IMG/VR virus record: IMGVR_UViG_3300031962_000010
Span: 1 to 39,569 of that record
Length of the DNA stretch: 39,569 nt
Source: a virus
Reading direction: 5' to 3' (one strand)
Part shown: positions 3,250 to 16,439 of the stretch, one piece after another
How positions within the stretch are numbered: position 1 is the stretch's first letter
How the letters are laid out: each line of letters begins with the position of its first letter
Translations under genes and position numbers: made by a program
Notes under the pieces: model-generated
Databases searched by the model: none
What the model saw: only the letters and a program-made list of their open reading frames with translations
What the model was told of the DNA's origin: nothing

Positions 3250-3282
3250 CGTCAAGCACGTATACTTTTATTTACGTTTTAT
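3250..3282 (-). promoter_or_regulatory. Shared 33-bp intergenic motif, copy 1 (candidate late promoter/operator)
   Basis: This stretch matches 26988-27020 at 28 of 33 positions, in the same orientation. Both copies begin at the stop codon of the upstream gene and precede the next gene. On the minus strand it reads GTAAATAAAAGTATACGTGC, then TTGACG. TATACG could be a -10, but no good -35 is visible, which would fit an activated phage late promoter. Confidence 0.5.
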
Positions 3283-4326: not shown

Positions 4327-4613
4327 TCTGGCGTGTGTAAAATCCCGCCTTCATATCCGCCACCACATTCCGTGCAATTACAATATTCATCGAAAGGGAA
4401 TCTTTCAAAGCGGATTTGTTTTAAGAAATCAATGTGTTCGATAACATGCGGGCGAATATCGGCGGCGCGACCTCGGCAAAACGGCAGTGCCCGTTCAAGC
4501 CGCGCGATCCGATACGATAACTTTTTTTCGTCGCACGTTTCCCAAAATGGAGCGAACAGTTTTACAGCGTCTACACGCGCATCCGAGGAGGGCGGCTTTT
4601 CTGACGTGTTCAC
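4311..4613 (-). CDS. Hypothetical protein with C-terminal CxxC motif
   Basis: A 100-residue protein that starts at a GTG, with GGAG ten bases before it. The C-terminal part, EYCNCTECGGGYEG followed by HTPEC, holds four cysteines and could bind zinc. The first 40 residues overlap another frame (4495-4680) that also has a coding look, so either these two genes truly overlap by 119 bases or one start is wrong. Function unknown. Confidence 0.55.
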   Translation of the reverse strand: MNTSEKPPSSDARVDAVKLFAPFWETCDEKKLSYRIARLERALPFCRGRAADIRPHVIEHIDFLKQIRFERFPFDEYCNCTECGGGYEGGILHTPECRFR

Positions 4614-4680
4614 AGTCCATCTTCTCCTTCTCGGCCAGCAAGCGCCCCAGAAGTTCTTCGATCCGCTTGAAGCGGTTCAA
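4495..4680 (-). CDS. Small basic protein with Cys cluster (alternative or overlapping frame)
   Basis: A 61-residue frame that starts with TTG and overlaps the previous TGA as TTGA, the coupling pattern used throughout this phage. It encodes a short amphipathic helix (EELLGRLLAEKEK), then CEH..GCACRRC and a basic tail. An internal ATG (MDCEH) has a strong GAAGGAG just before it. It overlaps 4311-4613 in a different frame, so confidence is limited. Confidence 0.45.
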   Translation of the reverse strand: MNRFKRIEELLGRLLAEKEKMDCEHVRKAALLGCACRRCKTVRSILGNVRRKKVIVSDRAA

Positions 4681-4976
4681 TTCGGCGGTCCCATGCGCGC
4701 GGCAATATCTTTCAAATAATCGCGATGGCCAACTTCAAAACCCAACTTTTGCGACATATCTAAAACTTGATTAACGTCCAAGAAATCACTAAGAGAGCTG
4801 AGATCGGAAACGAAACAATATTTCAGCCAATCGCGGATTTCCAGTTCGTCTTTGCAACCGTGAAACTTGGCTAATATGGAAAGCAACTTGTCCATGTTGG
4901 CTTTGAGCGCCGTAACTTCCACGGTCTCCGCGAATCGGATATTTTCTGGCTTGATATTCTTGAATGGATTCTCCAT
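4677..4976 (-). CDS. Hypothetical acidic helical protein (99 aa)
   Basis: It starts at ATG 4976 (MENPFKNIKPENIRF); a longer GTG start at 5066 is possible but has no ribosome site. The body is mostly helical, with segments such as ALKANMDKLLSILAKF and SDLSSLSDFLDVNQVLDM. It contains two cysteines and no membrane segment. I do not recognise the family. It sits between a microprotein and the Cys-cluster gene, and its TGA overlaps the TTG of the next gene. Confidence 0.65.
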   Translation of the reverse strand: MENPFKNIKPENIRFAETVEVTALKANMDKLLSILAKFHGCKDELEIRDWLKYCFVSDLSSLSDFLDVNQVLDMSQKLGFEVGHRDYLKDIAARMGPPN

Positions 4977-5137
4977 AAAAAATTTATTCCCGCCTCCCAA
5001 TCGCAGCGCGCTCGCTGGGAATCGGTCACATGAGCAACCGATTGGCCATGTTTCCATGGCGACCACGAATAAGCGCGTTTTTGCGCAACTTGTCAGAGTG
5101 TCTTTGTTCAGCGTTTAGCAAAGGAACTTTCAGCGCT

Positions 5138-5239
5138 TTAACTTGTCAGCTTCTTCATCGAAGTTGTATGTCCGATTACAAATCGGGCGCTCTTGGCGAG
5201 AGCCAATATCCGTCTTTCAAGGACGGTTTTTGTTCCCAT
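5138..5239 (-). CDS. Putative microprotein (33 aa)
   Basis: A short basic ORF (MGTKTVLERRILALAKSARF...) in an otherwise empty 307-base gap. The ATG at 5239 is preceded by GGGAG with a 5-base spacer, a strong Shine-Dalgarno site for this phage. The stop TAA lies in a patch (GACAAGTTAAAGCGC) that is echoed 60 bases further on. No family recognised. The rest of the gap, 4977-5137, shows no gene. Confidence 0.4.
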   Translation of the reverse strand: MGTKTVLERRILALAKSARFVIGHTTSMKKLTS

Positions 5240-5283
5240 GCGTTCTCCCACTTCGCTACCGAAGGCAGGAAAATTCTCCTTTC

Positions 5284-5841
5284 TCAAACTTCAATGACCG
5301 TCGTGGCGTTGAGCAAACTCAGCTTGCCGTCGAGATCGCCCAGCACCTTCTCCAGCCCTTCCTGTTCCTCAAGCAGAGTTTTCTCATCCAAGTGAATCAG
5401 GATTTCAATTGGCTGCTTTTCGCCTGTGGTCACGGTGGCTTGCGCCGCCGCTGCCGCGAAGTTTACCCGCCCGCCTTCGCGCTGCACTTTGTCGCGGATT
5501 TGCTTGATGGCTTGATTCATCGAAGCGAGAAACAATTGCCGTGGCGAAGCGATCTCGCGCCGGAAGTTTAGCCACTCCTGAATGGACATCTCATTGTCGC
5601 CCACTTTGGTCGTAGTGCCAAGGTTCGACCGCTGAATCGCGCTGCGAATGGCCACAATGCGCTTTTCCAAGTCCTCGATGGCTTGCCTCTCGCGCTTCAC
5701 GTATTCGACGCTTCCGCCTTCGAGCGGGTCCTTCAGCCGCGAATCCCGCCCGATATTGGCCAATACCGCTTGGCGTTTCTTTTCCAGCCGCTTGCCAATG
5801 GTTTTAATCTCGGCAAGAGCTTCCGTAATCGTCATACTCAT
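5284..5841 (-). CDS. Coiled-coil protein of unknown function (185 aa)
   Basis: ATG 5841 (MSMTITEALAEIK) is chosen because GGAG lies at the right distance and the ATG overlaps the previous TGA as ATGA. Upstream in-frame codons have no such support. The N-terminal 80 residues are heptad-rich (IKTIGKRLEKKRQAVLANI, ERQAIEDLEKRIVAIRSAI), as is the C-terminal third (EKTLLEEQEGLEKVLGDLD). A central part includes FRREIASPRQLFLASMNQAIKQI. It could be a scaffold or chaperone-like virion factor; this is a guess from shape only. Confidence 0.7.
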   Translation of the reverse strand: MSMTITEALAEIKTIGKRLEKKRQAVLANIGRDSRLKDPLEGGSVEYVKRERQAIEDLEKRIVAIRSAIQRSNLGTTTKVGDNEMSIQEWLNFRREIASPRQLFLASMNQAIKQIRDKVQREGGRVNFAAAAAQATVTTGEKQPIEILIHLDEKTLLEEQEGLEKVLGDLDGKLSLLNATTVIEV

Positions 5842-6047
5842 CTCTCTCTCCTTTTCCACAACGCGAATTGCGGTATCTCCGCTCTGTATTCCTCGATGGG
5901 AACAAACCGCCAACGCCAACGCGAAGAACTCCATAGATCGTTCGTCCGACGCATCGCCTTGCGCCGCACTTCGGCTTGATACTTCAACACCGACACTTCC
6001 TTGATTGGCACGATGCCAAGAGATCGCAAAATCCCCTGCACCTTCAC
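5838..6047 (-). CDS. Small basic hypothetical protein
   Basis: About 69 residues, Arg/Trp-rich at the C-terminus (DLWSSSRWRWRF). Starts at TTG 6050 and GTG 6047 are both in frame. GTG 6047 is preferred because it overlaps the previous TGA as GTGA and has GGGAG seven bases upstream. The stop overlaps the next ATG. No family recognised. Confidence 0.6.
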   Translation of the reverse strand: MKVQGILRSLGIVPIKEVSVLKYQAEVRRKAMRRTNDLWSSSRWRWRFVPIEEYRAEIPQFALWKRRER

Positions 6048-6100
6048 CAATTTCTCCCGGCGAGAGAGACGTTCAGTGGTTTTCTAACTAAAGTTGCCAT
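6044..6100 (-). CDS. Putative leader microprotein (18 aa)
   Basis: An 18-codon ORF (MATLVRKPLNVSLAGRNW) with GAGGAG seven bases before ATG 6100. Its TGA overlaps the GTG of the next gene. The strong ribosome site with a 4-base overlap suggests a translated leader that feeds ribosomes onto the weaker GTG. Coding status is unproven because of the length. Confidence 0.35.
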   Translation of the reverse strand: MATLVRKPLNVSLAGRNW

Positions 6101-6140
6101 TTGGTTTTCTCCTCGATTTTAAGATTTTTACTGCGTGGCC

Positions 6141-6899
6141 CTAAACTACTCTGCGACCTTCAAACTTCGGTTCATCCCAAACATCGAGATAAAGCTGAAT
6201 GCCTTTGTAATCCATCACCAAGAATGGATCGCTTACCTGCATGTGAATTTCCTGCCAGCGTTCTTGCAACTCGGAAACGTAAAAGTTCGTCTCGGGCAAC
6301 GCTTGCTTCACCTGCAACGCACGTTCAATCGCGAAGTCAGGGACGGGATTGCGGTAAGGATTGTAACTCCCGCCGATTGGAAAACTTATCCATTCGCCTT
6401 GGTGAATATCGGCTTTCTTGTGGCGGGCAATCATGCAAATAATCCAAGAGCCAACAATGAATCCCAACCATCCGGTTATCATCCTTGCCGCAAACAGATA
6501 CTTGGCCAATGTGCCACCGTCCGCCATAGCTCCGAGGCTTACCGCACCAAAGATCAGCGATAGGACCATAACGACTCCGCCAAGAACAACAATCACTTCT
6601 CCTGGGCTACTCTTGTGCATGGCCTTCACGAAGGCGCAGCTTCCCTTGCGCTCGATCTTCTTGACCTCCGCGCGCTGATACTTGTCTACCGCGCGAGAAT
6701 CGAATGGTTCGATGCCCAGCGATTCCAGCGCCGATGCCACCGCCAATTCATTGACGCGATGCGCCGCCACTGCTTCCTGATTATTGAGTGCGGACGGTGA
6801 ATAGCCCAATTCCTTTCTCGCGCGTTCCAGTAACTCGCGCTTGCCAAAACTGATTTCCGGTGATGCAGTGAAAATTTTACGCTCTAAAATTGTTTCCAT
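6141..6899 (-). CDS. Membrane protein with two TM segments
   Basis: A 252-residue protein. Residues 1-95 are soluble and helical, and two hydrophobic segments follow (about 100-122, EVIVVLGGVVMVLSLIFGAV, and about 138-160, ARMITGWLGFIVGSWIICMI). The C-terminal domain contains HQGEWISFPIGGSYNPYRNPVPD and helical stretches. GGAGAG precedes ATG 6899. The gene at 6937-7710 carries a similar QGEWFFIPRPD phrase, so part of the soluble domain may be related to that family. It is in the transcription unit driven by the 7742-7770 promoter. Confidence 0.75.
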   Translation of the reverse strand: METILERKIFTASPEISFGKRELLERARKELGYSPSALNNQEAVAAHRVNELAVASALESLGIEPFDSRAVDKYQRAEVKKIERKGSCAFVKAMHKSSPGEVIVVLGGVVMVLSLIFGAVSLGAMADGGTLAKYLFAARMITGWLGFIVGSWIICMIARHKKADIHQGEWISFPIGGSYNPYRNPVPDFAIERALQVKQALPETNFYVSELQERWQEIHMQVSDPFLVMDYKGIQLYLDVWDEPKFEGRRVV

Positions 6900-6936
6900 A
6901 ATTCTCTCCTTTGATTGGAATGTTTTCTGGACTCTT

Positions 6937-7710
6937 TCAGTCCAGAAAAACCATGCTGGCCATGGCGCGGGATTCGCTTTCGCGGTTCATCTTCACTTCA
7001 TGCCATACGTTGCCCAGCTTTAACGTCTTGTGGTCGGGATGACGAATCTCACCACGCACGAACACGGCGGCGTTGCGCACCATGCCCTGGAAATTCGTGC
7101 TGGCAATCTTCTTGGGATTTTCCAAGCACCACGCCTTGTATTGCGCCTCATTGAATCCTTGTGGGGCAATACGGCGATTTACATAAACTGCATCGCCACC
7201 AAACTGCGCAGCTTCGGTCGCAATGTGCGGCTTGCCGCCACGCCCATCGGAAGTCCTGCGCATCAATGGCTCATCGTGTGTCGTGGGAGTGTTCTTGGGA
7301 AGATGAAAATCTGGACGCGGAATGAAAAACCATTCCCCTTGGCGAATCCAATTCCCGTCCTTCACCAATTCCTTTGGACGCAAAGCATCCTTGGCTTCCT
7401 CAACTGTCCGCACTGGCTCGTTCTCGGGGATCGCGGCAACAAACCAGTGGCGCTCATCCTGGCCACACAGAAACTTCGATTTGTTTTTCCCTTCGGCTAC
7501 ATGCAAAAGCAAATGACGGTCTTTCGCGGCAACCTGTAGAACTTGCAGAGAAACATCGTACCGCGCGCGAATCTTGAAATATTCGCCGTCCTTGTCGCGC
7601 AGAATGTCCAAGGAAAATGGACGATTGCGAAAACCAATGGAATCTTGGCCGGTCACTTCCACGCGCGATCCTATTTTCAGAAAGGCGCGTTCAACTGCTT
7701 CAACGCTCAT
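6937..7710 (-). CDS. Conserved hypothetical protein (RHLLLHV / GEWFFIPRP / HPDHKTLKL family)
   Basis: A 257-residue soluble protein. The ordered motifs DRHLLLHV, CGQDERHWFVAAIPE, QGEWFFIPRPDF, GKPHIATE, VYVNRRIAPQGF and VRGEIRHPDHKTLKLGNVWHEV are ones I associate with a widespread uncharacterised family seen in phages and in soil and planctomycete-type bacteria. Conserved His residues suggest metal or nucleotide handling, but no activity is established. AAGGAG precedes ATG 7710, and a strong promoter with an embedded palindrome lies directly upstream, so this is the first gene of its unit. Confidence 0.75.
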   Translation of the reverse strand: MSVEAVERAFLKIGSRVEVTGQDSIGFRNRPFSLDILRDKDGEYFKIRARYDVSLQVLQVAAKDRHLLLHVAEGKNKSKFLCGQDERHWFVAAIPENEPVRTVEEAKDALRPKELVKDGNWIRQGEWFFIPRPDFHLPKNTPTTHDEPLMRRTSDGRGGKPHIATEAAQFGGDAVYVNRRIAPQGFNEAQYKAWCLENPKKIASTNFQGMVRNAAVFVRGEIRHPDHKTLKLGNVWHEVKMNRESESRAMASMVFLD

Positions 7711-7741
7711 GGAAAAATCTCCTTGTAGGGAACAGCCGCAG

Positions 7742-7770
7742 AAATTAGCAATAAACGTTTACGGTGTCAA
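7742..7770 (-). promoter_or_regulatory. Sigma70-type promoter with palindromic operator in the spacer
   Basis: On the minus strand: TTGACA (7770-7765), 17 bases, then TAATTT (7747-7742), with a TGC extension. The spacer contains GTAAACGTTTAT. This would start transcription near 7735, just ahead of the gene beginning at 7710. The same 12-mer occurs in the promoter at 8908-8937. Confidence 0.75.
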
Positions 7771-7830
7771 GAATATTTTGGAAGAAATCCACAGGGGATT
7801 ATGCCTCTGGAGGGTTGGCGTAGGCAAACC

Positions 7831-8091
7831 TCATTTCCCCTGCTCCTTCTTCCGCTTCACTCCGCGTTCACGCTCCAGCAACTTTTTCAGGCCATCCATG
7901 ACTTGAACGCGAGTAATCCGTTTCGCTAACCTGAATTTTCTGCACGAACAGAATCCTCCTTTCGCATCTTGGTGATGGCAGGACTCATTCCAAATATGAA
8001 TTCCGTATTCATGCCCGCATCTGCAAAGGCGAGCAAACCACGCTTTACAATCAGTCTCAGAATACATTCTTCCGTCTTTAGTGATGTGCAT
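7831..8091 (-). CDS. Small Cys/His-rich zinc-binding-type protein
   Basis: About 86 residues from ATG 8091 (MHITKDGRMYSETD). It has LCRCGHEYGIHIW, then CHHQDAKGGFCSC, giving five cysteines and several histidines in a compact zinc-ribbon-like array, and a basic C-terminal helix (LLERERGVKRKKEQGK). A longer frame to 8241 exists, but it covers the separate gene at 8078-8257. It overlaps that gene by 14 bases. Probably a nucleic-acid-binding adaptor; role unknown. Confidence 0.65.
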   Translation of the reverse strand: MHITKDGRMYSETDCKAWFARLCRCGHEYGIHIWNESCHHQDAKGGFCSCRKFRLAKRITRVQVMDGLKKLLERERGVKRKKEQGK

Positions 8092-8257
8092 GTTCAAACC
8101 TCTTTTGGGCTGCTTCTTCAAGTAAGCGAACAAGGTCTTTGCGAGATAGCAGCGGGTTATCGGCTTGCCCAGCAACAAGCCCATAGCTGGGAAGTGTTCG
8201 AATCGCGCTCCAAAGTTTATAATCCCGTTCATCCCAGCCATTTACCTGCTTGCTCAT
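8078..8257 (-). CDS. Small hypothetical protein (59 aa)
   Basis: ATG 8257 has GGAG in the preceding gene's end and overlaps its TGA as ATGA. The 59-residue product (MSKQVNGWDERDYKLWSAI...) has an acidic/aromatic start and a C-terminal helix, SRKDLVRLLEEAAQKRF. No family recognised. Ribosome site, coupling and composition all support it. Confidence 0.65.
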   Translation of the reverse strand: MSKQVNGWDERDYKLWSAIRTLPSYGLVAGQADNPLLSRKDLVRLLEEAAQKRFEHAHH

Positions 8258-8583
8258 TTTTCCACTCCGCGTTCAAGCCCGCATGTACATGGAAATTTAT
8301 GCGTCTCTCCGCAATTGGGTTGACTGCACTCCCACTCGCTGTAACCGCAACCAGGTAGATGCCGTCCATATTTGACAAGTGCTTCCTTCAGCTTGCCTGT
8401 GGCCTCAGCGCGGACTTGGGCGAGAGCATCAAGAATTTCGTTCCTTAACTCGCTGCGATAGCCCCACAGGATAACTTTGCACTTGCCTGTTTCCTTGCTG
8501 AATTTGTCGACAATGTAATCAGCAATCTGTGCATCGTTGGGCTGTGGCGCAGCGAGCGCCGAAGCTGATTTATCTTCTTTCAC
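8254..8583 (-). CDS. Hypothetical protein with C-terminal Cys cluster
   Basis: A 109-residue protein starting with GTG. The N-terminal two thirds look helical (IADYIVDKFSKETGK, SELRNEILDALAQVRAEA). The C-terminus holds CGYSEWECSQPNCGETHKFPCTCG, six cysteines and a histidine that could form a zinc site. It overlaps the upstream gene by 14 bases and the downstream ATG by 4. No family recognised. Confidence 0.65.
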   Translation of the reverse strand: MKEDKSASALAAPQPNDAQIADYIVDKFSKETGKCKVILWGYRSELRNEILDALAQVRAEATGKLKEALVKYGRHLPGCGYSEWECSQPNCGETHKFPCTCGLERGVEK

Positions 8584-8899
8584 AGTGGCAATCCTTTTCG
8601 TCCAATTTAGTCCGTTCCTCCAACACTTCGGCGCAGGTCACTGATTTGTGACCCCAATGCGGCCCGGCTTCTATCGTGACTTTGTGCCAGCCGTTGCCGT
8701 CTTCATCTGCGAGGTAGAACTTCCGCTCGCCATAGATGATTTCAACAGCCCGCATCTTCGTTCCTTCAAGCCCTTTATACCAACCCAATGGAAAGGGGCA
8801 TTCGCCGACGCGAATCAACACCCGTCGAGCAATACAGGGTTCTCCATTCCAAAAAGTGGCCGCCCGCTCCTCGCCAGCTTTGGGCTTGCTGCTGCTCAT
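8570..8899 (-). CDS. Hypothetical protein, first gene of the left unit (109 aa)
   Basis: It starts at ATG 8899 (MSSSKPKAGEERAATF); an in-frame ATG at 8917 would lie inside the promoter -10 and is rejected. It is a beta-rich soluble protein (RVLIRVGECPFPLGWYKGLEG, then ERKFYLADEDGNGWHKVTIEAG) with a Cys/His end, CHCERR. Short strands and conserved Trp/Gly suggest a small barrel. Function unknown. Confidence 0.65.
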   Translation of the reverse strand: MSSSKPKAGEERAATFWNGEPCIARRVLIRVGECPFPLGWYKGLEGTKMRAVEIIYGERKFYLADEDGNGWHKVTIEAGPHWGHKSVTCAEVLEERTKLDEKDCHCERR

Positions 8900-8907
8900 G
8901 GCGCAGC

Positions 8908-8937
8908 AATATATCATAAACGTTTACAAGAGTTCAA
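8908..8937 (-). promoter_or_regulatory. Promoter with palindromic operator in the spacer
   Basis: Minus strand TTGAAC (8937-8932), 18 bases, TATATT (8913-8908). The spacer holds the same GTAAACGTTTAT as the 7742 promoter. It reads into the gene starting at 8899. Confidence 0.6.
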
Positions 8938-9159
8938 AATTTTTATGGATCAGAACTCCAGCTCTATAGCTATCGCTGACCCCGGCAGGGGTGACTCGCC
9001 CCCCGTTTCCGATTACGAAAGAATTACTTCCACTTGGCAACAATCTAGTGGAGACAATGGGGTGTAAGCGCAATGCAATCAATGGGTTGGGTTGAGTCGT
9101 GGATTCAAGGCAAGGTGCGGGATTGAACAATCCAAGCGGATCATGGCAGACTTGCGTTC

Positions 9160-9609
9160 ATGGAAACGCAAACAGAGACCGTCAGAGCGCTAGACGAAAA
9201 TTCCGGGCACGATAGGCCGATAAGCGAAAAGCACAGACTCCTGGCGCATCTAATGCTGAAGGATGGTAAACCCTTTCGGACTGCTGCATTAGAGGCAGGT
9301 TATTCACAGAATACAGCCGATGCCGGTCCTGCTGATATGATAGAGCGCTGTCCCGGATTCGCGCAGGCTCTAAAAGAAGAATCTAAGCAAATACCGGCCA
9401 GCCAGGACGCGCAAGCTCTAGCCGTCAATACCTTGATAACAGACTTGCGTAATGGCAAATCACGCGGTTTAGAGCGGACTATCGAAGTCTTGGGTAAGTT
9501 CAAAGTGTACGACTGGTTTGTTCGCAATTCCGACATGCAATTAGGCGTATTCCTTGGATTGACTGAGCAAAACCCTGATCCTTTGGCCGAGAAGAATCTT
9601 CAGGACTAG
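9160..9609 (+). CDS. Terminase small-subunit-like protein
   Basis: A 149-residue protein. Residues 22-60 (KHRLLAHLMLKDGKPFRTAALEAGYSQ and following) read like the N-terminal HTH of Terminase_2/small terminase proteins, where hosts of variants show Ax.xAGYS before a turn. The rest is helical, ending in a short tail that could bind the large subunit. If correct, it recognises packaging sites. It is unusual in lying about 8 kb from terL and on the opposite strand, so a regulatory HTH protein is an alternative. No clear ribosome site precedes ATG 9160. The 260-base stretch upstream (8938-9159) shows no convincing gene, only a CCCC-GGCA-GGGG hairpin. Confidence 0.55.
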   Translation: METQTETVRALDENSGHDRPISEKHRLLAHLMLKDGKPFRTAALEAGYSQNTADAGPADMIERCPGFAQALKEESKQIPASQDAQALAVNTLITDLRNGKSRGLERTIEVLGKFKVYDWFVRNSDMQLGVFLGLTEQNPDPLAEKNLQD

Positions 9610-9622
9610 TACCATTATTCCC

Positions 9623-9652
9623 TTGGCATCCTTGTAAGTAATCGTCTATATT
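9623..9652 (+). promoter_or_regulatory. Promoter of the ribozyme-containing operon
   Basis: TTGGCA (9623-9628), 18 bases, TATATT (9647-9652). Transcription would begin near 9659, so the 5' end of the message would open with a GCATG...CATGC hairpin just before the AGGAGG of the first gene. An upstream hairpin (CGTCTA/TAGACG) overlaps the -10. Confidence 0.55.
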
Positions 9653-9691
9653 CGTAGACGCATGGGCAGACTACTCATGCAGGAGGATTCA

Positions 9692-10000
9692 ATGATGACA
9701 GCAATGCAGTGGATACGGAATGGCGATAAGCCTTTCCTGACGTTTGTTGTAAAGGGACCAGAGCAAACCGCGAGAGAACAAATGTTTACGCGTGAGATAA
9801 TCGCGCAGACCATTGGCTTCACTCGCACAGATACAGTCTTCAAAACGGATGTGAAGTATCGGGAGGCAATCGCGCAATGGTTCTGTGAAACCCCTGAACT
9901 GATTCGCGGTTACGGCTATCCTGACGGAACCTGCCTGATTTATTCCACGCATGAGGTGCAATCGTGTGTCCCAGACTCTCGACGTAGCATCGAAGATTGA
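9692..10000 (+). CDS. Hypothetical protein, cistron A of the ribozyme operon
   Basis: A 102-residue protein. ATG 9692 is chosen because AGGAGG lies five bases upstream. It looks like a small alpha/beta protein (TVFKTDVKYREAIAQWFC, then GTCLIYSTHEV) with no membrane segment or catalytic motif that I recognise. It is followed after 37 bases by the first hammerhead-like ribozyme, whose cleavage would give this mRNA a 3' end closed by the stem III hairpin. Confidence 0.65.
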   Translation: MMTAMQWIRNGDKPFLTFVVKGPEQTAREQMFTREIIAQTIGFTRTDTVFKTDVKYREAIAQWFCETPELIRGYGYPDGTCLIYSTHEVQSCVPDSRRSIED

Positions 10001-10037
10001 AACCTGCCCAACATGCCATCGGCCATTAAAGAAGTAA

Positions 10038-10094
10038 GCTCGAAACCGCGCGTAACTGCGCGGTCTGTCGGTTATGCCGACACTGAAGATGAGC
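10038..10094 (+). ncRNA. Candidate type II (permuted) hammerhead ribozyme, copy 1
   Basis: Stem II is GCUC (10038-10041) with GAGC (10091-10094). GAAA follows the 5' strand. Stem III is ACCGCGC/GCGCGGU (10045-10051 and 10058-10064), with the conserved A-U pair at its base. The predicted cleavage residue is C10065. Stem I is UGUCGG/CCGACA (10066-10071 and 10077-10082) with a UUAUG loop, and the core CUGAAGA is at 10083-10089. An extra unpaired U (10090) precedes stem II. It lies between cistrons A and B. The match to CUGANGA...GAAA...UH and the seven compensatory changes relative to copy 2 are the evidence; activity is untested. Confidence 0.75.
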
Positions 10095-10125
10095 AAGCCG
10101 GATGACGACCGGCAAAGGAGAAAAA

Positions 10126-10353
10126 ATGCACAAGAAACAATTTATAGCATTAGCAGAAATGGTGGCCGGGCTGGAGCCTATCAATTTGAAGCAGAAAGAC
10201 TCCCGTGCGACACCAGAGCATCGGATGTGGGAAACGATGCGGGATGCGCTCACAGACTTTTGCCAGCAGCAAAACGGACTATTCAATCGCGAGCGTTGGC
10301 TTGGTTACATTGCAGGCGAGAATGGTCCGAATGGTGGCACAGTCAAGAAATAG
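10126..10353 (+). CDS. Small phage protein, cistron B of the ribozyme operon
   Basis: A 75-residue protein from ATG 10126, with AAGGAG six bases upstream. The layout MHKKQFIALAEMVAGL..., then a WETMRDALTDFCQQQNGLFNRERWLGYI segment, is a familiar small phage protein type with a helix, an acidic linker and a conserved F-x-R-x-R-F/W-L ending. Its role is unknown. The stop TAG (10351-10353) shares its G with stem II of the second ribozyme. Confidence 0.7.
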   Translation: MHKKQFIALAEMVAGLEPINLKQKDSRATPEHRMWETMRDALTDFCQQQNGLFNRERWLGYIAGENGPNGGTVKK

Positions 10354-10407
10354 TCCGAAACCGGGAGCAATCCCGGTCTGCGCGTATGGCGCGCACTGAA
10401 GATGGAC
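10353..10407 (+). ncRNA. Candidate type II (permuted) hammerhead ribozyme, copy 2
   Basis: Stem II is GUCC (10353-10356) with GGAC (10404-10407); GAAA follows. Stem III is ACCGGGA/UCCCGGU closed by a GCAA tetraloop (10360-10377). The cleavage residue is C10378. Stem I is UGCGCG/CGCGCA (10379-10395) with a UAUGG loop, and the core CUGAAGA is at 10396-10402, followed by the same extra U (10403) as copy 1. The element spans exactly from the stop codon of cistron B to the start codon of cistron C, whose AUG is formed by A9, the extra U and the first G of stem II. Confidence 0.75.
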
Positions 10408-10569
10408 AAGAAGCGTAAGAAACCGCGCATAATCGTCAAACGAAATAGATACGCCAAACGCTGGGAGGTATGGCTGGTTTCTGGCGTGCAATCTTTCTGT
10501 TTCGATTATCACGGGACAAAACGCGATTGTCTTTGGTATCGCAGAATGTTGCACAAGGCAGGTATATGA
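10402..10569 (+). CDS. Small basic protein, cistron C of the ribozyme operon (55 aa)
   Basis: A 55-residue Lys/Arg-rich protein (MDKKRKKPRIIVKRN, then RWEVWLVSGVQSFCFDYHG). The beta-hairpin-like RYAKRWEVWLVSG segment and a basic N-terminus suggest nucleic-acid binding; this is inference. The start codon lies within the ribozyme core, and no Shine-Dalgarno is visible, only CUGAAG. Its stop overlaps the next start as ATGA. Confidence 0.6.
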   Translation: MDKKRKKPRIIVKRNRYAKRWEVWLVSGVQSFCFDYHGTKRDCLWYRRMLHKAGI

Positions 10570-10658
10570 CGTTCCCGGTCTGGTTCTGGTTCCTTGTCGG
10601 CTTTATTGTTGGCCGGATCGTAGGCTGGATTGACCGGCGAACGTGGAGGAGGTCATAG
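10566..10658 (+). CDS. Small single-pass membrane protein (30 aa)
   Basis: MTFPVWFWFLVGFIVGRIV and a basic tail (DRRTWRRS) form one hydrophobic helix with a positive cytoplasmic end. It is coupled to cistron C through an ATGA overlap. Very similar Val/Gly-rich microproteins occur at 15555 and 20102. It could be a holin-like or regulatory peptide; the function is not established. Confidence 0.55.
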   Translation: MTFPVWFWFLVGFIVGRIVGWIDRRTWRRS

Positions 10659-10689
10659 AGCGTAAAAGCGTATGGTCTTACAGGTTTTC

Positions 10690-10805
10690 TCTAAGGGAAC
10701 AGTCTTCGTTTAGGCGACGGTAGCGCGACAATGCGCGCGGGGTTGTAAGCGCATTCTTGCCGTGTTACCCCTCCCGTCTAGGCAAAGCGTTTCGGCTAGT
10801 CACCG
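10690..10805 (+). ncRNA. Candidate structured RNA (three-way junction) at the operon 3' end
   Basis: Non-coding sequence after the last gene folds by eye into GACGG/CCGTC (10715-10719 with 10774-10778) closing two hairpins. One is GCGCG/CGCGC (about 10723-10738). The other is GGGGT/ACCCC (about 10739-10771), with an inner GTAAG/CTTGC stem. A further CGG...CCG hairpin follows. No recognised family. The GC-rich folding exceeds what I expect of a leftover spacer. Confidence 0.4.
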
Positions 10806-10810
10806 ATCCG

Positions 10811-10841
10811 GGCCAGCTACGTTAAGGCTGGCCATTTGTTT
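10811..10841 (+). terminator. Rho-independent terminator of the ribozyme operon
   Basis: GGCCAGC (10811-10817), a nine-base loop and GCTGGCC (10827-10833) make a perfect 7-bp stem, followed by ATTTGTTT. It closes the plus-strand unit that starts near 9659. The tail is imperfect. Confidence 0.65.
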
Positions 10842-10915
10842 GTCAAAAGTTCCGCACGGCGCGTAGGTGGGATTCCCGCGATGCAATCCTTCAAGTAGCG
10901 GTCAAAAGTCCCGCA
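10842..10915. repeat. Direct repeat pair GTCAAAAGTYCCGCA
   Basis: GTCAAAAGTTCCGCA at 10842-10856 and GTCAAAAGTCCCGCA at 10901-10915 differ at one base and lie 59 bases apart in a non-coding stretch (10842-10958) that shows no gene. They could be iterons or protein-binding sites near the presumed origin. Confidence 0.45.
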
Positions 10916-10958
10916 GGTGAGATGTAAAGCTCAAGTAACAGCCATTGTCGGGAAAAGT

Positions 10959-11168
10959 CTATTCGAGATCGTACAGTTGGCGGATACGAGTGGGGGTATG
11001 CCCTACATGGAATTCCTTGCAATCGACACATTTATAGACGCTTAGGCCGGTTACGCCGCGTTGTTCCGCGAGCAGAATCATATTGTGCGCGGCATCCTCG
11101 CGGGTCAGGTAGCGGACTTTATCTCCGCAGCGTTTCTTGCGTCGGTTCCGATGGATTTTGTTGCGCAT
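10959..11168 (-). CDS. Small zinc-knuckle-type protein (YKCVDCxxFHVGH)
   Basis: A 69-residue basic protein. The N-terminus is very Arg/Lys-rich (MRNKIHRNRRKKRCGDKVRY), then a helix covers EDAAHNMILLAEQRG, and the C-terminus has YKCVDCKEFHVGHTP. The Y-x-C-x-x-C-x-x-[FW]-H-x-G-H pattern is common in small phage and plasmid proteins with a single zinc site. It lies downstream of the candidate origin as the last gene of the early-left unit. A good ribosome site is not evident before ATG 11168. Confidence 0.65.
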   Translation of the reverse strand: MRNKIHRNRRKKRCGDKVRYLTREDAAHNMILLAEQRGVTGLSVYKCVDCKEFHVGHTPTRIRQLYDLE

Positions 11169-11216
11169 TGGACTTTTTTATTTGATTGCACGTGATGATA
11201 GTTTTTAGGGGTGATA

Positions 11217-11489
11217 GGTTAAGGAAGGAAAGGGGGAATGTTAAGGGGGAAAGGGAACCTAAGGGAAGAGGGGACCTTTTTGTGAAAATGTGGATATACA
11301 TTTATATCTATTTACTTCTGTAGTATACACGTATACGTAAGTGTTCATCACCGTTTACCCGCCGCCCTTTTTCCTGCCCCAGAATGTCCCTGTGGATAAT
11401 TTTGTGCAAATCCTGTGGAAAACTTTTTAAATGGCTTGTAACTCCTTATACAAGAATAGGTTACCTTTTCTAACCTGTGGAAAGCTTTA
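11217..11489. other. Candidate replication origin (DnaA-box cluster, purine tract)
   Basis: No gene is visible. On the plus strand there are two full DnaA boxes (TGTGGATAA 11391-11399; TGTGGAAAA 11414-11422) and four with one mismatch (11281, 11289, 11403, 11476), all in one orientation. An A+T-rich segment (11281-11345) carries two GTATAC palindromes (11323, 11331), and a long G/A tract runs from 11217 to 11275. The position next to recombination genes fits an origin. Confidence 0.55.
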
Positions 11490-11867
11490 TTATTCATCCA
11501 CCACGCCAATTTTCACGACGGTTTTCTTCTCTTTGCCGATGATTTGTTCGGCAGGAATGAGGTTCAATTTGTCCTGGGAATCGTCGGCAATGTATTCAAG
11601 ATTGCGCAAGGCATCGAGAATGACTTTCTGCGATCCTTGCAAATTGTCGGCATCGAAGGGTTTGGAGTGATGCACGGTGATTTGCACCCACATCCTGCCC
11701 ATCTTGGCGTTATCCCGCAGGTAGCTCCGATGCCTGCCGCAAGAAACTCCGTAATAAAGGTCGTGTTCCCACTCTTCGCGGAGTTTCTTGTAAGTGTGCG
11801 GGGTCCTGTATTTACGCTTCAGCACGTTAGGTGAAGGCGGCACGCGGGGAATGGAGATGAGGACCAT
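11490..11867 (-). CDS. rusA: RusA-like Holliday junction resolvase
   Basis: A 125-residue protein. It starts with a strand and PPSPNVLKRKYRTPHTYKKL, then carries the family pattern DADNL near residue 75, SQKVILDALRNLEYIADDSQDKL, with the acidic residues D75, D77, D87-like and DD that bind metal in RusA. The basic patch KLREEWEHDLYY is also expected. It would resolve recombination or replication junctions before packaging. The length matches RusA (about 120). The ATG at 11867 overlaps the TAA of the gene upstream. Confidence 0.85.
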   Translation of the reverse strand: MVLISIPRVPPSPNVLKRKYRTPHTYKKLREEWEHDLYYGVSCGRHRSYLRDNAKMGRMWVQITVHHSKPFDADNLQGSQKVILDALRNLEYIADDSQDKLNLIPAEQIIGKEKKTVVKIGVVDE

Positions 11868-12484
11868 TAAAAGCCGCTGCCGGGTTTCGCTCCGAGAATG
11901 CCAGCGCCAATGCCGCGAATCCCGCCTTGGAAAAAGCCGCCAGCCGCCTGTATGCCTATCATCTGCGTCGAATAATAAGTATAGGGCGGATAGAATTGCG
12001 TTTGCATGGCCGCTAGTTCTTGCGGACTTGGTTGTTTAGGCCGCGAAAATTCATCGCGGATTTCGCACGGCACGCCATATTCATCCTCCAGTTGCATAAT
12101 GGTTACCGCGTCCATCTCGGGTGGGCAGAAAAGTTTCTTGGGATAAGCAAATTGAGCAAGGTAGCCGTAAGTGCATTCCGCTACCTTGCCCCAAAGATAG
12201 ACTTCGCCCGCGACTCCCGGAGCCGACTGAATATAGCTTTGGAACAATCCAATGATTCCGCAGCCAGGTTTAATCGCGTGAATGCCCATCGCCATGATGG
12301 CATCGATTTCCATCGCTTTACGGTACGGCCAGATAAAATGTTGCGTCGCACTTTTCAGATAAGGCATGCGCCCAATCGTATCGATCCGCCACACGCGCAA
12401 GCCGATAATTGGCGCGGTTTGCTGCTCAGTCCTTTGCGGGTGTTGCTGGGATGATTTCTGGCTCTGGTTCTTTAACAGGCTCAT
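11867..12484 (-). CDS. Conserved phage protein (GEVYLWGKVxE...GYLAQ family)
   Basis: About 205 residues from ATG 12484, which has GGGAG eight bases upstream; a longer frame exists. The central part HAIKPGCGIIGLFQSY, then GVAGEVYLWGKVAECTYGYLAQFAYPKKL, matches a pattern I recall from a common phage family (H..CGiYA..., GxVxLWGxVxEHxxGYRA) of unknown function. The C-terminus is Gly-rich (FFQGGIRGIGAGILG). It overlaps the short gene upstream by 59 bases in another frame. It sits between a zinc protein and the resolvase. Confidence 0.65.
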   Translation of the reverse strand: MSLLKNQSQKSSQQHPQRTEQQTAPIIGLRVWRIDTIGRMPYLKSATQHFIWPYRKAMEIDAIMAMGIHAIKPGCGIIGLFQSYIQSAPGVAGEVYLWGKVAECTYGYLAQFAYPKKLFCPPEMDAVTIMQLEDEYGVPCEIRDEFSRPKQPSPQELAAMQTQFYPPYTYYSTQMIGIQAAGGFFQGGIRGIGAGILGAKPGSGF

Positions 12485-12560
12485 GCTTGGTCTCCCTCTC
12501 TGGAATTGGAAGTGTTGCTGGCACAACTTCGATTTCACGTATCTTTTCACCGATGTTCAT
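12426..12560 (-). CDS. Small Pro/Glu-rich protein (44 aa)
   Basis: MNIGEKIREIEVVPATLPIPERE and a P/E-rich end. AAGGAG precedes ATG 12560 at a good distance, and the ATG overlaps the previous TGA as ATGA, which makes this frame convincing despite its length. The repeated Glu-Pro composition suggests an extended, flexible peptide. Its 3' end overlaps the next gene by 59 bases. Confidence 0.6.
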   Translation of the reverse strand: MNIGEKIREIEVVPATLPIPERETKHEPVKEPEPEIIPATPAKD

Positions 12561-13096
12561 ACCATTCTCCTTTGGCCATGATGGCCCTCCTTGTATTTGA
12601 CCAGCCAATCCTTCGACAGCCGGTTCAATGCTTTGAGCATAATGGGATGATGCGACTTGACCATCGCTTTGACATGCGACCAATGGTGGCCGTGCAGCGT
12701 GGTGCAAATCAAGCACAGCTTGTGATTGCCGTGCTGATGGTAGAGTTTGAACTTATCGCCGCACAGTTCGCAAAAGCGGTACAACTCAACGGTTTTGTAA
12801 TGGAATAATTGCAAAGTGCCTTTGCCTAATTTTTCAACGATCTGCGCTTTTGTTAATCCTTGGCGTGCGAGTCTTTGCACCTGGAGGCGCAACTCCGCGC
12901 GCCTCGCAGTCTTGATTTCATTGGGAACGATGCCTTGTTTGAATAAGACTTGCCTCACACGTTCGCGCGTCAAAGCGAATACGTTCCCGATCTCTTGAAG
13001 TTTCATTCCACTCCGATACATATCCGCCATTTCCGCGTTGCGTTCCCGAGTGGCCTGCGGTTGTGAATTTCCAGGCCCATATTTATGTCGTCCCAT
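12557..13096 (-). CDS. HTH protein with C-terminal zinc-finger region
   Basis: A 179-residue protein. ATG 13096 has GGAGGAGG directly upstream. Residues 25-60 (MADMYRSGMKLQEIGNVFALTRERVRQVLFKQG) look like a sigma-70 region 4/resolvase-type HTH. A second HTH-like stretch (LARQGLTKAQIVEKLGKG) follows, then CELCGDKFKLYHQHGNHKLCLIC and HGHHWSHVK, a zinc-binding Cys/His array. Such proteins regulate phage transcription or bind DNA at replication sites; which applies here is not evident. Its stop overlaps the next ATG. Confidence 0.75.
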   Translation of the reverse strand: MGRHKYGPGNSQPQATRERNAEMADMYRSGMKLQEIGNVFALTRERVRQVLFKQGIVPNEIKTARRAELRLQVQRLARQGLTKAQIVEKLGKGTLQLFHYKTVELYRFCELCGDKFKLYHQHGNHKLCLICTTLHGHHWSHVKAMVKSHHPIMLKALNRLSKDWLVKYKEGHHGQRRMV

Positions 13097-13301
13097 TTCC
13101 TCCTCCTGCAATTCCGCAGCTAATAATGCGCTTGCACTTCGCGCAACTGAAAATAATCACCATCCCGCGACCCGTTTCGTAAGCTGGCTTCGAGCGGATA
13201 AACGGATTGCGCAAGCCACAATGCGGGCACGTGGGCGTCGCGTTCTTCACTTTAGCCCACAACTCATCGATGCTTTGGGCTTCGACTATATTCGAGGACA
13301 T
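13083..13301 (-). CDS. Zinc-ribbon protein (72 aa)
   Basis: From ATG 13301 (MSSNIVEAQSIDELWAK): CPHCG near residue 25, then CAKC near residue 53, a standard two-knuckle zinc ribbon with strands between. It overlaps the next gene by 14 bases. Probably nucleic-acid binding. The upstream 84 bases (13302-13385) hold a TTTTCCACA (DnaA-box-like) and no gene. Confidence 0.7.
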   Translation of the reverse strand: MSSNIVEAQSIDELWAKVKNATPTCPHCGLRNPFIRSKPAYETGRGMVIIFSCAKCKRIISCGIAGGGNGTT

Positions 13302-13385
13302 GGATTTTTCCACAGGTTTTGCACAACTCCGTACAAGCCAGAATGCCAAGGTTTTTCTTCAAAAATCGGGTGAATCTTCTCGCCA

Positions 13386-13592
13386 CTACCCACTGGCTAA
13401 AGACTTGTCTTCCGCATGGGCTTCGTTGACCGTCATGTTGGTTCCCAAATAAATCGTTCCGATCACTTTTCTGTCTCCGCTTCGCATCGTCCAAACAAAT
13501 GGATTTTTGCCGTGCAACCCGCCTGCTTCGAGTTCCTCTGCTGTTACCGTCGCCACCAGTTCGCCAGCGTGTTTTATTTCCCAAGTTTTCAC
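13386..13592 (-). CDS. Small hypothetical protein (68 aa)
   Basis: A beta-rich protein (MKTWEIKHAGELVATVTAEELE...GDRKVIGTIYLG). The GTG at 13592 overlaps the TGA of the annealing-type protein as GTGA. No motif is recognised. The acidic and hydrophobic alternation suggests a small beta-sheet fold. Confidence 0.65.
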   Translation of the reverse strand: MKTWEIKHAGELVATVTAEELEAGGLHGKNPFVWTMRSGDRKVIGTIYLGTNMTVNEAHAEDKSLASG

Positions 13593-14551
13593 GCCAAATC
13601 CTTGGGCGGCGGATTCTTCGGCCAGATTTCATCCATCGCTTTTTGCGCCGCTTTTGCACCTTTCAACTGTTCCTTGACCGCCGCAACAGCGGACTTCGGC
13701 GTGACCGGCTCCGCATCCTTGTCCTTCGCTTCCATCACTTCGCGCCAGCTTGTGTGCCCTTCACGGATCGCGGCAAACAACGCGCGCAAGTCCGTGATTT
13801 CTTTTTGCGCCAGCGTTTCCACGTCATGGCCGAGATATTCCTTGAGTTGCGCGACACTGACCCCGACGGTCGAAAACGCATCGAAGATTTTACGTTTGCC
13901 AAGTTCCGGGTCAATCGCATCTTGATTCGCCTGCGTGGCCAGGATTTGCACCATGCATTCTTCCACAATGTCGCCGGGAAGCAAGCGCAAGCCATTGGTG
14001 CGGATGGCCTTGGAAATCAGCGCGTTCTGTTTGTTCAGTAGGTCGTCTTCGGTCGCGGAAAGAATATACACCACATTGCCCGCTTTATTCTGCCGCGTGC
14101 GAATCACTTCATCGCCTTCGCGCGCGTTGCGCCTTTCCACAGTTTTTTCCACAGTGATGTCCGAGCTGTAAGGCGTGTTGGTTTCGCAATCGACCACAAT
14201 CACCCGCACGATACGCTTTTCGCGGTCATCATACACCGTCATTTGATCCACGCTGATGTTGCCCATCAAGCGGATGGCGGTCTCGGCGAAACGGATCGAT
14301 GGACCTTCGACACCCCGGCCAATTGGTTTGAGATAGCGCGCCACGGCGGCAAAGCCGGGGCGCTTGCACTCTTTCAGCAATTTCTCGCGCACTACGTCAA
14401 GGTCTCTTGGATGCCTTTCCGCGTAGATATAGCGCGCCTTTATCATCGCTTCCGCTTGTGCCGCCACTGCCGAGCTGGCGGTCTCCGCCCGGTAACGCTC
14501 GACGGGTTCCGGCGATTTCACCACTTCGAGTTTCCTCTCCTCTTTGTCCAT
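13589..14551 (-). CDS. Putative single-strand annealing-type recombination protein
   Basis: A 320-residue protein from ATG 14551 (MDKEERKLEVVKSPEPVERYR), with GGAG upstream. The conserved run KRPGFAAVARYLKPIGRGVEGPSIRFAETAIRLMGNI, then YDDREKRIVRVIVVDCETN, TVEKTVERR, VVYILSATEDDLLNKQNALISKAIR and RLLPGDIVEE follows a phage family that is regularly paired with YqaJ/lambda-exo nucleases. By that pairing and position it is probably the annealing partner. The family name is inference; the sequence conservation pattern is strong. Confidence 0.7.
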   Translation of the reverse strand: MDKEERKLEVVKSPEPVERYRAETASSAVAAQAEAMIKARYIYAERHPRDLDVVREKLLKECKRPGFAAVARYLKPIGRGVEGPSIRFAETAIRLMGNISVDQMTVYDDREKRIVRVIVVDCETNTPYSSDITVEKTVERRNAREGDEVIRTRQNKAGNVVYILSATEDDLLNKQNALISKAIRTNGLRLLPGDIVEECMVQILATQANQDAIDPELGKRKIFDAFSTVGVSVAQLKEYLGHDVETLAQKEITDLRALFAAIREGHTSWREVMEAKDKDAEPVTPKSAVAAVKEQLKGAKAAQKAMDEIWPKNPPPKDLA

Positions 14552-15545
14552 GGTGTTCCCACTCCTCGTTGGGCTGAAACAAAAATCTTCGCGAGCCTTG
14601 GCGCAGCGTGGTACATGCTTTAATGACTGCATCACAGACATCGCTCGGCTTGCGTTCATTAATGATCGGGCAATATTTTTTGTATTCTTCACTAATCGCT
14701 AGGAAAGCTATTTTCCAATCGACATCTTCGCGGTCTTTTGTTTTCTTCCAAGTGATTCTGCCGAAGTCCCCCTGAATCCCGTCGTGTTCACCGATAATCA
14801 TCTTTAGGCGATTTTCTGCTTCCGCTTGATACTCACTGTATTCTTCGACCACTCGGCGTGCGGAGCCGAGCGCAAATATTAGTTGCTGGCTGGTAATGTC
14901 ATTCTCTTTTATCGGTAGAAGATTTAGCGGGAATTTCTTACGCAAATAAACTTTCCAAGCCGCTGAACCGTCTATATCGGGCGGCTGGTCGGCAACGATG
15001 TAGCGGTCCCACCAATCACGAAGCTGCTCAATCATGTCGTGTTCCAGTTCCGCGTCGCGCTCAATCGTGTAAATGGAGAACTTCACGCCACCATGGAGCA
15101 ACGCAATGTCCCACACGGGATAATCCGTCACCGCCATGTAATGCGCGCACTGAATCAGATAGTGGTAAGGCACCTGGTCCGTTCCCGGTTCGCCAAACTG
15201 GTCGGCGAATTGATTTTCGCTTTTGAGTTCCACTCCGCGGTCCACTCCCGCAACGAAGCGGTCAGGCGTGCCCATCAAAATCTTGTGGACCGGATGAATC
15301 CAATGCACCGGGAAAGGTAAGTCTAATTGTTTTCCAGTCTCGCGTTCGTATAGCCGCGCAATCACCGGTTCCAAGTCTTTGCCAAGAGCTAGGAGGAATT
15401 CCCGCGCAGGGTCTTTCTCTTCGGCCAAGCCCTTTTTCTCCAGCCACACCTGCATCGCGCTTTTCCAAGGACTCAAGCCAAGAATGGCGGCGGCATCCGA
15501 ACCGCCGATGCCGGTGCGCCTGTCAATTTTCCACTGATTATCCAC
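14397..15545 (-). CDS. YqaJ/lambda-exonuclease-like recombination nuclease
   Basis: A 382-residue frame. GIGGSDAAAILGLSPW (residues 12-27) is the typical N-terminal motif, followed by EFLLALGKDLEPVIARLYERETGK, TPDRFVAGVDRGVELKSEN (catalytic D and E-x-K near residues 94-106) and a QCAHYMAVT helix. It resects DNA ends for annealing by the adjacent protein. Start codon is GTG 15545. The last 50 residues (after EEWEHHGQ) have a low-complexity look and overlap the annealing-type gene by 155 bases, so the true C-terminus may differ. Confidence 0.85.
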   Translation of the reverse strand: MDNQWKIDRRTGIGGSDAAAILGLSPWKSAMQVWLEKKGLAEEKDPAREFLLALGKDLEPVIARLYERETGKQLDLPFPVHWIHPVHKILMGTPDRFVAGVDRGVELKSENQFADQFGEPGTDQVPYHYLIQCAHYMAVTDYPVWDIALLHGGVKFSIYTIERDAELEHDMIEQLRDWWDRYIVADQPPDIDGSAAWKVYLRKKFPLNLLPIKENDITSQQLIFALGSARRVVEEYSEYQAEAENRLKMIIGEHDGIQGDFGRITWKKTKDREDVDWKIAFLAISEEYKKYCPIINERKPSDVCDAVIKACTTLRQGSRRFLFQPNEEWEHHGQRGEETRSGEIAGTRRALPGGDRQLGSGGTSGSDDKGALYLRGKASKRP

Positions 15546-15554
15546 AGGATTTCC

Positions 15555-15638
15555 TTATCTGAATCCAACGAAGAAAAAAGCATAAGCCAGTGCGGCGATG
15601 GCAATAATGGCCATCACACTGACGCGCAGCAACGCCAT
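15555..15638 (-). CDS. Membrane microprotein (27 aa)
   Basis: MALLRVSVMAIIAIAALAYAFFFVGFR is a single hydrophobic helix with a basic N-terminal flank. It begins at ATG 15638, right after the TAG of the excisionase-like gene, in an otherwise empty 90-base gap. The ribosome site (AGG) is weak. Role unknown. Confidence 0.55.
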   Translation of the reverse strand: MALLRVSVMAIIAIAALAYAFFFVGFR

Positions 15639-15639
15639 C

Positions 15640-15831
15640 CTATGCGGCCCTTGCATCGCGCCTCTTGGCAATCAGTTTTTCTAAATCTTGCTCGCGAATC
15701 AAAACCTTGCCGCCATGCTTCACACGCGGCAGCAGAATCCCCAAGTCTTCTTTCAGCCAGCGCTTGAGCGCTCTGCGGTCAACTCCAATCTTTTTCGCAG
15801 CTTCGGAAAGCGAATAGTGCCGTTCGATCAT
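15640..15831 (-). CDS. Excisionase-like winged HTH protein (63 aa)
   Basis: From ATG 15831 (MIERHYSLSEAAKKIGVDRRALKRWL): the pattern matches MerR/Xis-type HTH_17 proteins, with a sequence-recognition helix (RRALKRWLKEDLG), a wing (PRVKHGGKVLIREQDL) and a C-terminal basic helix. It lies one gene from the early promoter, and the phage has a tyrosine integrase, so directional control of excision is likely. The ATG overlaps the preceding TGA (ATGA). Confidence 0.75.
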   Translation of the reverse strand: MIERHYSLSEAAKKIGVDRRALKRWLKEDLGILLPRVKHGGKVLIREQDLEKLIAKRRDARAA

Positions 15832-16004
15832 GCCGGGTCCTTGTGCCGGTCGAGATATTCCCGCAACGCCGTGCGTATCACCTGCGTCATGGTTACATCC
15901 ATACGGTGCGCCACTTGCTCGATTTTCCTGTATAGCTCGAAGTTGACCCGCGCGGATAAGACTTCCAATTGGCGCTGGGTAATGGATTTCCGTTTCCGGC
16001 CCAT
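15828..16004 (-). CDS. Ribbon-helix-helix regulator
   Basis: 58 residues from ATG 16004 (MGRKRKSITQRQLEVLSARVNFELYRKIEQVAHRMDVTMTQVIRTALREYLDRHKDPA abbreviated by position): a short strand SARVNFEL, then two helices YRKIEQVAHRM and TMTQVIRTALREYL, the Arc/CopG/MetJ topology. AAGGA lies nine bases upstream. It is the first gene after the leftward promoter and is the best candidate to bind the palindromes in the divergent control region. The family assignment is firm; the target is inferred. Confidence 0.8.
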   Translation of the reverse strand: MGRKRKSITQRQLEVLSARVNFELYRKIEQVAHRMDVTMTQVIRTALREYLDRHKDPA

Positions 16005-16042
16005 TCGGCGAATTCCTTTGTCGAATTTTCGACAGCACAGCC

Positions 16043-16071
16043 ATATAAATTCCCCCGACAAAAAATGTCAA
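16043..16071 (-). promoter_or_regulatory. Leftward early promoter
   Basis: Minus strand TTGACA (16071-16066), 17 bases, TTATAT (16048-16043). Start near 16036; it drives the RHH gene and the recombination operon. Confidence 0.75.
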
Positions 16072-16074
16072 GGA

Positions 16075-16120
16075 CGTATACGAAAATTTCCCTTGAAATA
16101 CGAAAATCTTTCAGGTATAC
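16075..16120. promoter_or_regulatory. Operator cluster between divergent early promoters
   Basis: CGTATACG palindrome (16075-16082), then two direct repeats ATACGAAAAT (16078-16087 and 16098-16107) spaced 20 bases, and GTATAC (16115-16120) overlapping the rightward -10. Layout suits a repressor/Cro-type switch. Confidence 0.6.
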
Positions 16121-16121
16121 A
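16093..16121 (+). promoter_or_regulatory. Rightward early promoter
   Basis: TTGAAA (16093-16098), 17 bases, TATACA (16116-16121), followed by AAGGAGG before ATG 16154. Its -10 overlaps a GTATAC site. Confidence 0.75.
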
Positions 16122-16153
16122 AGAGCACTCAAATCTGAAAAAGGAGGTGCAAC

Positions 16154-16324
16154 ATGACGCCTCGCTATCGGCTTATCAAGCTGCGGGTCCGCGTCAGCTT
16201 GTGGCATTTCGTGATTCGCTACACGGTGTTGCTCGCGGCGGTAATCGTGGGAGTCTTGATTTTGATGCTCACCGGCCATCGGGAATATGAAGCGTTGATT
16301 GGAGCCGATGCATTCGCTGATTGA
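16154..16324 (+). CDS. Small single-pass membrane protein (56 aa)
   Basis: A basic amphipathic start (MTPRYRLIKLRVRVS), then one hydrophobic helix (VLLAAVIVGVLILML) and an acidic tail. A near-perfect AAGGAGGTG precedes ATG 16154. It is the first gene of the early-right unit. Membrane interference or superinfection exclusion would fit, but nothing specific is shown. Confidence 0.6.
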   Translation: MTPRYRLIKLRVRVSLWHFVIRYTVLLAAVIVGVLILMLTGHREYEALIGADAFAD

Positions 16325-16427: not shown

Positions 16428-16439
16428 TAGGAGGAGGAA

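Follow-up and report, generated by a model that had tools for sequence, protein, structure and literature searches.

Two type II hammerhead motifs with an extra core U lie between the small genes of a putative temperate phage operon

The reason why bacteria and phages keep self-cleaving ribozymes in their genomes has yet to be settled (PMC6155905, PMC10085705). That hammerheads can occur in tandem around the genes of prophages was published in 2011, with clusters in which several of them border one gene or a short block of genes; tandem arrays of C. scindens, A. caulinodans and A. tumefaciens were shown to cleave in vitro, that of A. tumefaciens also in E. coli, and Perreault et al. suggested that long phage transcripts are processed by arrangements of this kind (PMC3088659). 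The Bcep176 hammerhead is a cleaving ribozyme whose core change, A6C, shifts its preference to Mn2+, and A9/G10.1 is a metal-binding site of hammerheads that binds Mn2+ (PMC7151607). Known hammerhead alignments contain insertions of 1-2 nt between CUGAnGA and the adjoining stems (PMC10085705).

Here we analysed a complete IMG/VR record of 39,569 bases, the whole of which is referred to as the window. Going by an integrase, a RecE-like exonuclease and a major head protein, its source is a temperate tailed phage. A first-pass annotation of this DNA had proposed type II hammerheads in two gaps between the small genes of an operon, and both the inter-cistron placement and the architecture were borne out, the latter by sequence order, minimum-energy folds and significant but sub-threshold matches to the Rfam family RF02276 (Table 1). 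In both copies helix II is open, helices I and III are closed by hairpin loops, and the CUGANGA element reads CUGAAGA. GAA is followed by the A15.1-U16.1 pair and then by H17 (A10045-U10064 and C10065 in copy 1, A10360-U10377 and C10378 in copy 2). The closing pair G10.1-C11.1 is formed by G10091-C10041 and G10404-C10356, one extra U away from A9. This unpaired U before stem II, which the annotation had correctly noticed, is designated U9a. The minimum-energy folds are hammerheads, at -25.4 kcal/mol for copy 1 and -26.0 kcal/mol for copy 2, also inside a context of 120-160 nt, and in both folds C17 falls where the annotation had placed it; self-cleavage would be expected after C10065 and after C10378. 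An alternative register with U10.1 opposite C11.1 was rejected, as it gives fewer pairs on inspection and as this register (register 0) is rare among insert-bearing relatives. In the structure line of RF02276 itself, C11.1 has no partner and its two neighbours on the 5' side pair with the first two bases after CUGANGA, one step off the accepted G10.1-C11.1 pair.

Table 1. Coordinates of the two motifs, the surrounding operon and the array-bearing relatives
Feature	Record	Position	Strand	Basis or remark
Sigma-70-like promoter	window	9623..9652	+	TTGGCA-18-TATATT, 10/12; consensus match, just upstream of first gene
First cistron, 102 aa	window	9692..10000	+	AGGAGG upstream
Type II hammerhead copy 1	window	10038..10094	+	RF02276, fold, chance rate, covariation
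Copy 1, stem II	window	10038-41/10091-94	+	GCUC/GAGC
Copy 1, GAAA	window	10042-45	+	
Copy 1, stem III	window	10045-51/10058-64	+	C17 = 10065
Copy 1, stem I	window	10066-71/10077-82	+	loop UUAUG
Copy 1, CUGAAGA	window	10083-89	+	followed by U10090 (U9a)
GCCGG/CCGGC hairpin	window	10097..10113	+	between ribozyme 1 and Shine-Dalgarno; in minimum-energy fold
Shine-Dalgarno AGGAG of second cistron	window	10116..10120	+	sequence
Second cistron, 75 aa (P0002)	window	10126..10353	+	relatives in five viral contigs
Type II hammerhead copy 2	window	10353..10407	+	RF02276, fold, chance rate, covariation
Copy 2, stem II	window	10353-56/10404-07	+	GUCC/GGAC
Copy 2, GAAA	window	10357-60	+	
Copy 2, stem III	window	10360-66/10371-77	+	C17 = 10378
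Copy 2, stem I	window	10379-84/10390-95	+	loop UAUGG
Copy 2, CUGAAGA	window	10396-402	+	followed by U10403 (U9a)
Putative third cistron, 55 aa (P0003)	window	10402..10569	+	AUG = A9, U9a, G10.1 of ribozyme 2
Putative fourth cistron, hydrophobic 30-aa peptide	window	10566..10658	+	AUGA overlap with third; read from sequence
Intrinsic-terminator-like hairpin, operon end	window	10811..10833	+	consensus match alone
Array, L262	IMGVR_UViG_3300017605_000570	9000-18500	-	24 RF02276 matches in 7.6 kb
Array, L263	IMGVR_UViG_3300033112_000310	1-15000		23 descriptor motifs, nearly all with inserted U
Array, Marav (L273), cultured Streptomyces phage	OQ995441.1			14 type II matches
Array, Salutena (L274), cultured Streptomyces phage	MT708548.1			12 type II matches

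A search with the Rfam hammerhead-II model, RF02276, which the annotation had named as a check, matched both copies over the full length of the model, at 32.2 bits (E 3e-4) for copy 1 and 29.2 bits (E 1.8e-3) for copy 2, but both lie below the gathering score of 37 bits, which no match in the Rfam scan of the window reaches. Many array members elsewhere also score below this threshold. The low scores and the G+C-rich stems would fit chance hairpins or transcription terminators that happen to resemble hammerheads, a reading that we consider highly improbable: a loose structural descriptor applied to the window found these two motifs on the + strand and none on the - strand, against a chance rate of 0.025 matches per window (400 windows simulated with its dinucleotide composition), homologous structures occur in many phages, and the pairing test on 166 sequences given below disfavours this reading. 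As for terminators, stem III is not followed by a U-run in either copy, and none was called on the + strand at the two sites.

Between the two copies, seven base pairs differ on both sides (three in stem I, two in stem II, two in stem III), a count from the annotation that proved correct in the alignment. Its accompanying statement that the unpaired bases are identical stands for the core nucleotides only, since hairpin loops I and III differ between the copies. We then searched virus contigs by sequence pattern and found the core with the extra U in 21 contigs, the canonical core in at least 120 and the core with any non-G insert in at least 119. The patterns fix sequence and leave the inner helix pairs free, so that an unbiased pairing test is possible. 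Among the matches listed, 145 of 166 distinct insert-pattern sequences add two or more pairs to stem II in the register that bulges a single base (U9a), compared with 10, 2 and 6 for the other stem II registers, and inner stems III and I are formed in 144 and 140 of these 166 sequences, respectively. When the closest subtype was aligned, 13 of its 16 pairs proved to have changed on both sides, and slid controls gave far lower values; the rows of this alignment were picked by a descriptor that demands pairing, so that the figure of 100% paired is true by construction, and the unbiased test is the 166-sequence primary-sequence set rather than this alignment. Since the core is invariant while the stems vary by paired substitutions, selection on the fold is required. 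A genome scan for the variant returned seven bacterial contigs, one of which, from Gemmiger sp. An120 (L028), shows the stems; the other six are without stems and chance-like, and their number is close to the expectation for the pattern.

In Bcep176-like type II motifs, the hairpin of stem I is 17 nt long and its 5-nt loop mostly reads U-N-A-N-G; stem II has 4 bp and is bordered by an A on one side in 88 and on the other in 80 of 89 members. Copy 1 reads A-GCUC/GAGC-A with loop UUAUG, and copy 2 reads A-GUCC/GGAC-A with the less typical loop UAUGG. Neither copy has the pseudoknot in which loop I forms at least four Watson-Crick pairs with the tail that follows stem II; the class with a 17-nt stem I has at most three complementary nucleotides between loop I and the 3' tail, and members with a longer stem I hairpin show loop I-tail complementarity above the shuffled control, which corresponds to the published pseudoknot. 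Judged by these sequence features, the window copies belong to the non-pseudoknotted, Bcep176-like subtype of type II hammerheads.

The extra U had been described in the annotation as unlike the usual core, a view that did not survive comparison with relatives. In the contigs of the matches listed, 209 motifs fit none of the search patterns (117 canonical, 89 with an inserted base and 3 ambiguous), and the 85 inserts with at least three stem II pairs comprise 79 U and 6 A. U9a is therefore present in 79 of the 206 clearly classed type II motifs that were not chosen for their insert, a proportion that applies to the pattern-fetched contigs from which the set comes and not to nature at large. 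One insert-bearing member, in L025, reaches 66 bits with RF02276, and cmscan displays its insert as extra letters at this junction. Together with the published insertions, this frequency and this score place U9a within the known range of hammerheads. Motifs of one contig tend to agree in insert state (81% versus 51% shuffled), and the state is the same at eight sites paired by eye between the phages Marav and Salutena, with differing stem III sequences; U-bearing and U-less copies also occur together in one genome (31 loci). The AUG formed in copy 2 suggested that the extra U might serve to build start codons. We rejected this as a general rule, since the core AUG opens a frame of at least 40 codons in 64 of 202 cases, close to the third that chance would give, and since, among the matches listed, a Shine-Dalgarno-led start lies further downstream, within 120 nt, in 387 of 453 distinct motifs. 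U9a is located at the A9/G10.1 metal-binding site and is a natural, testable change at the metal site of one of the best-studied catalytic RNAs; we found no cleavage or kinetic data for the U9a form in the open-licence literature.

The position of the motifs relative to genes is equally regular. In 65% of the 453 distinct motifs among the matches listed, a frame of at least 60 codons has its stop codon no more than 12 nt from G12, compared with 5% for random positions, and the architecture, covariation, conservation and stop-to-next-RBS placement recur across many phages. A tandem pair between phage cistrons, which the annotation had called unusual, is not so in view of the clusters published in 2011 (PMC3088659) and of arrays of 11-24 motifs, the individual array contigs having 24, 20, 15, 11 and 11 matches. 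In the seven array regions scanned, every motif is on one strand and none on the opposite strand. A simple Shine-Dalgarno-based caller placed exactly one ORF in 41 of 43 intervals of the two densest arrays, namely in 19 of the 21 intervals between descriptor-found copies in L262 and in each of the 22 intervals in L263, and 1-4 ORFs per interval in the other arrays. In Marav, a comparison by hand showed a clear match in 11 of the 12 depositor-annotated gaps of at least 60 nt between 40.0 and 49.9 kb, a weak match (19.7 bits) in the twelfth and no match within any gene; Marav and Salutena were found via similarity to an array contig and so are not a random phage sample. The window is a modest two-copy example, and its relatives include dense one-per-gene arrays, two of them in cultured Streptomyces phages. 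A RAGATH-28 RNA match (70 bits) lies at 2803-2884 on the minus strand of L025, inside a hammerhead array contig.

The occurrence of arrays at gene borders, the variable flanking genes and the concordance of insert state within contigs could also be accounted for if the motifs were inactive relics or recombination joints, their structure being a by-product of recent cassette spread. This is improbable in our judgement: with seven compensated pairs and both loops differing, the window copies are not recent duplicates, the invariant core and the paired stem substitutions require selection on the fold, and published tandem relatives cleave (PMC3088659). A broader proposal, which we put forward tentatively and with rather more doubt than belief, is both that U9a type II is a distinct, stably kept core variant and that such ribozymes serve phages as a general punctuation between genes, one after each gene with the 5' arm fused to the stop codon, which would yield single-gene mRNAs hairpinned at both ends.

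In most members stem II shares bases with the stop codon or lies directly beside it, so that a terminating ribosome should block folding. It is conceivable that the ribozymes are regulated switches, in which metal- or translation-dependent cleavage sets the expression of neighbouring genes, rather than constitutive cutters. The location of U9a at the Mn2+-binding site (PMC7151607), the start codon within the core of copy 2, the move to Mn2+ preference on the A6C core change of Bcep176 in the same subtype and the agreement of insert state between Marav and Salutena would all suit a switch. However, the near-chance frequency of long frames from the core AUG, the coexistence of U-bearing and U-less copies in one genome and the presence of one ribozyme per gene whatever the gene, unlike gene-specific control, make it unlikely.

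In the window, the small-gene operon runs on the + strand from the promoter match to the terminator-like hairpin, and two of its gaps hold the motifs. Sigma-70-like promoter matches (3 found versus 2.3 expected) and terminator-like matches (4 versus 3.4) are near their chance rates, so that support for these two elements comes mainly from position. Copy 1 sits 37 nt from the stop codon of the upstream gene and is not fused to it. Copy 2 occupies its entire gap, since the G of the second cistron's UAG stop (10351-10353) opens its stem II and the next AUG lies in its core. The first cistron gave no Pfam or PHROG match when the longer ORF at 9662-9997 was scanned, neither the first nor the third cistron had a relative in the searches made, and a comparison with 50,697 phage records brought up no direct DNA relative of this operon. 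No hammerhead was found near the relatives of the second cistron in five viral contigs (L002-L006), which indicates that this gene does not need ribozymes. Overlapping the second cistron in another frame, a 109-aa frame at 10089-10418 begins with the core AUG of ribozyme 1; it has no family match and is probably not a gene. The stretch of about 150 nt that separates the last cistron from the terminator-like hairpin (10659-10810) has neither an evident gene nor an Rfam match.

We favour, with reasonable though not full confidence, the explanation that two Bcep176-like type II hammerheads punctuate this small phage operon, cutting its polycistronic RNA into separate hairpin-ended mRNAs. Against it count the scores below the gathering threshold, the relatives of the second cistron that have no hammerhead near them and the distance of copy 1 from the upstream stop codon. 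RNA made from about 9660 to about 10840 would fold during transcription and cleave itself at both predicted sites, giving an RNA with the first cistron, a 313-nt RNA (10066-10378) with the second and an RNA with the last two. As a type II hammerhead cuts exactly between hairpins III and I, both new ends would carry a hairpin: upstream products would end in the stem III hairpin with a 2',3'-cyclic phosphate, and downstream products would begin with the stem I hairpin and a 5'-OH. Separate mRNAs with structured ends may then differ in stability and translation, so that cleavage could affect the life and the translation of each mRNA. Mapping of RNA ends in infected cells would directly test hammerhead processing of phage mRNAs.

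Among known systems, the window copies share with RF02276 type II hammerheads (PMC3088659) the order stem II 5' strand, GAAA, stem III, C, stem I, CUGANGA, stem II 3' strand, the A15.1-U16.1 pair, the phage or prophage setting and the clusters flanking single genes; they differ in the U added between A9 and G10.1, in having no loop I-3' tail pseudoknot and in scoring below the gathering cut-off. Pistol, twister and RAGATH RNAs, which are self-cleaving or associated with ribozymes, are likewise enriched in the vicinity of Mu-like phage genes and of each other (PMC10085705), but their folds differ from the hammerhead and the Rfam scan found none of them in the window. The Bcep176 hammerhead (PMC7151607, PMC3088659) resembles the window copies in its 6-bp stem I, its UUAUG loop identical to that of copy 1, its A-flanked 4-bp stem II and its phage intergenic position, whereas it has C6 in place of A6 and no inserted U. 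The ardA triple hammerhead of an Agrobacterium prophage, for which cleavage in vitro and in E. coli is reported (PMC3088659), likewise has more than one ribozyme on a single transcript, placed between small genes of the phage, although its genes are other ones and the arrays in related phages found here are far longer (11-24). The density of these arrays and their tight fit to stop codons go beyond the open-licence literature that we found.
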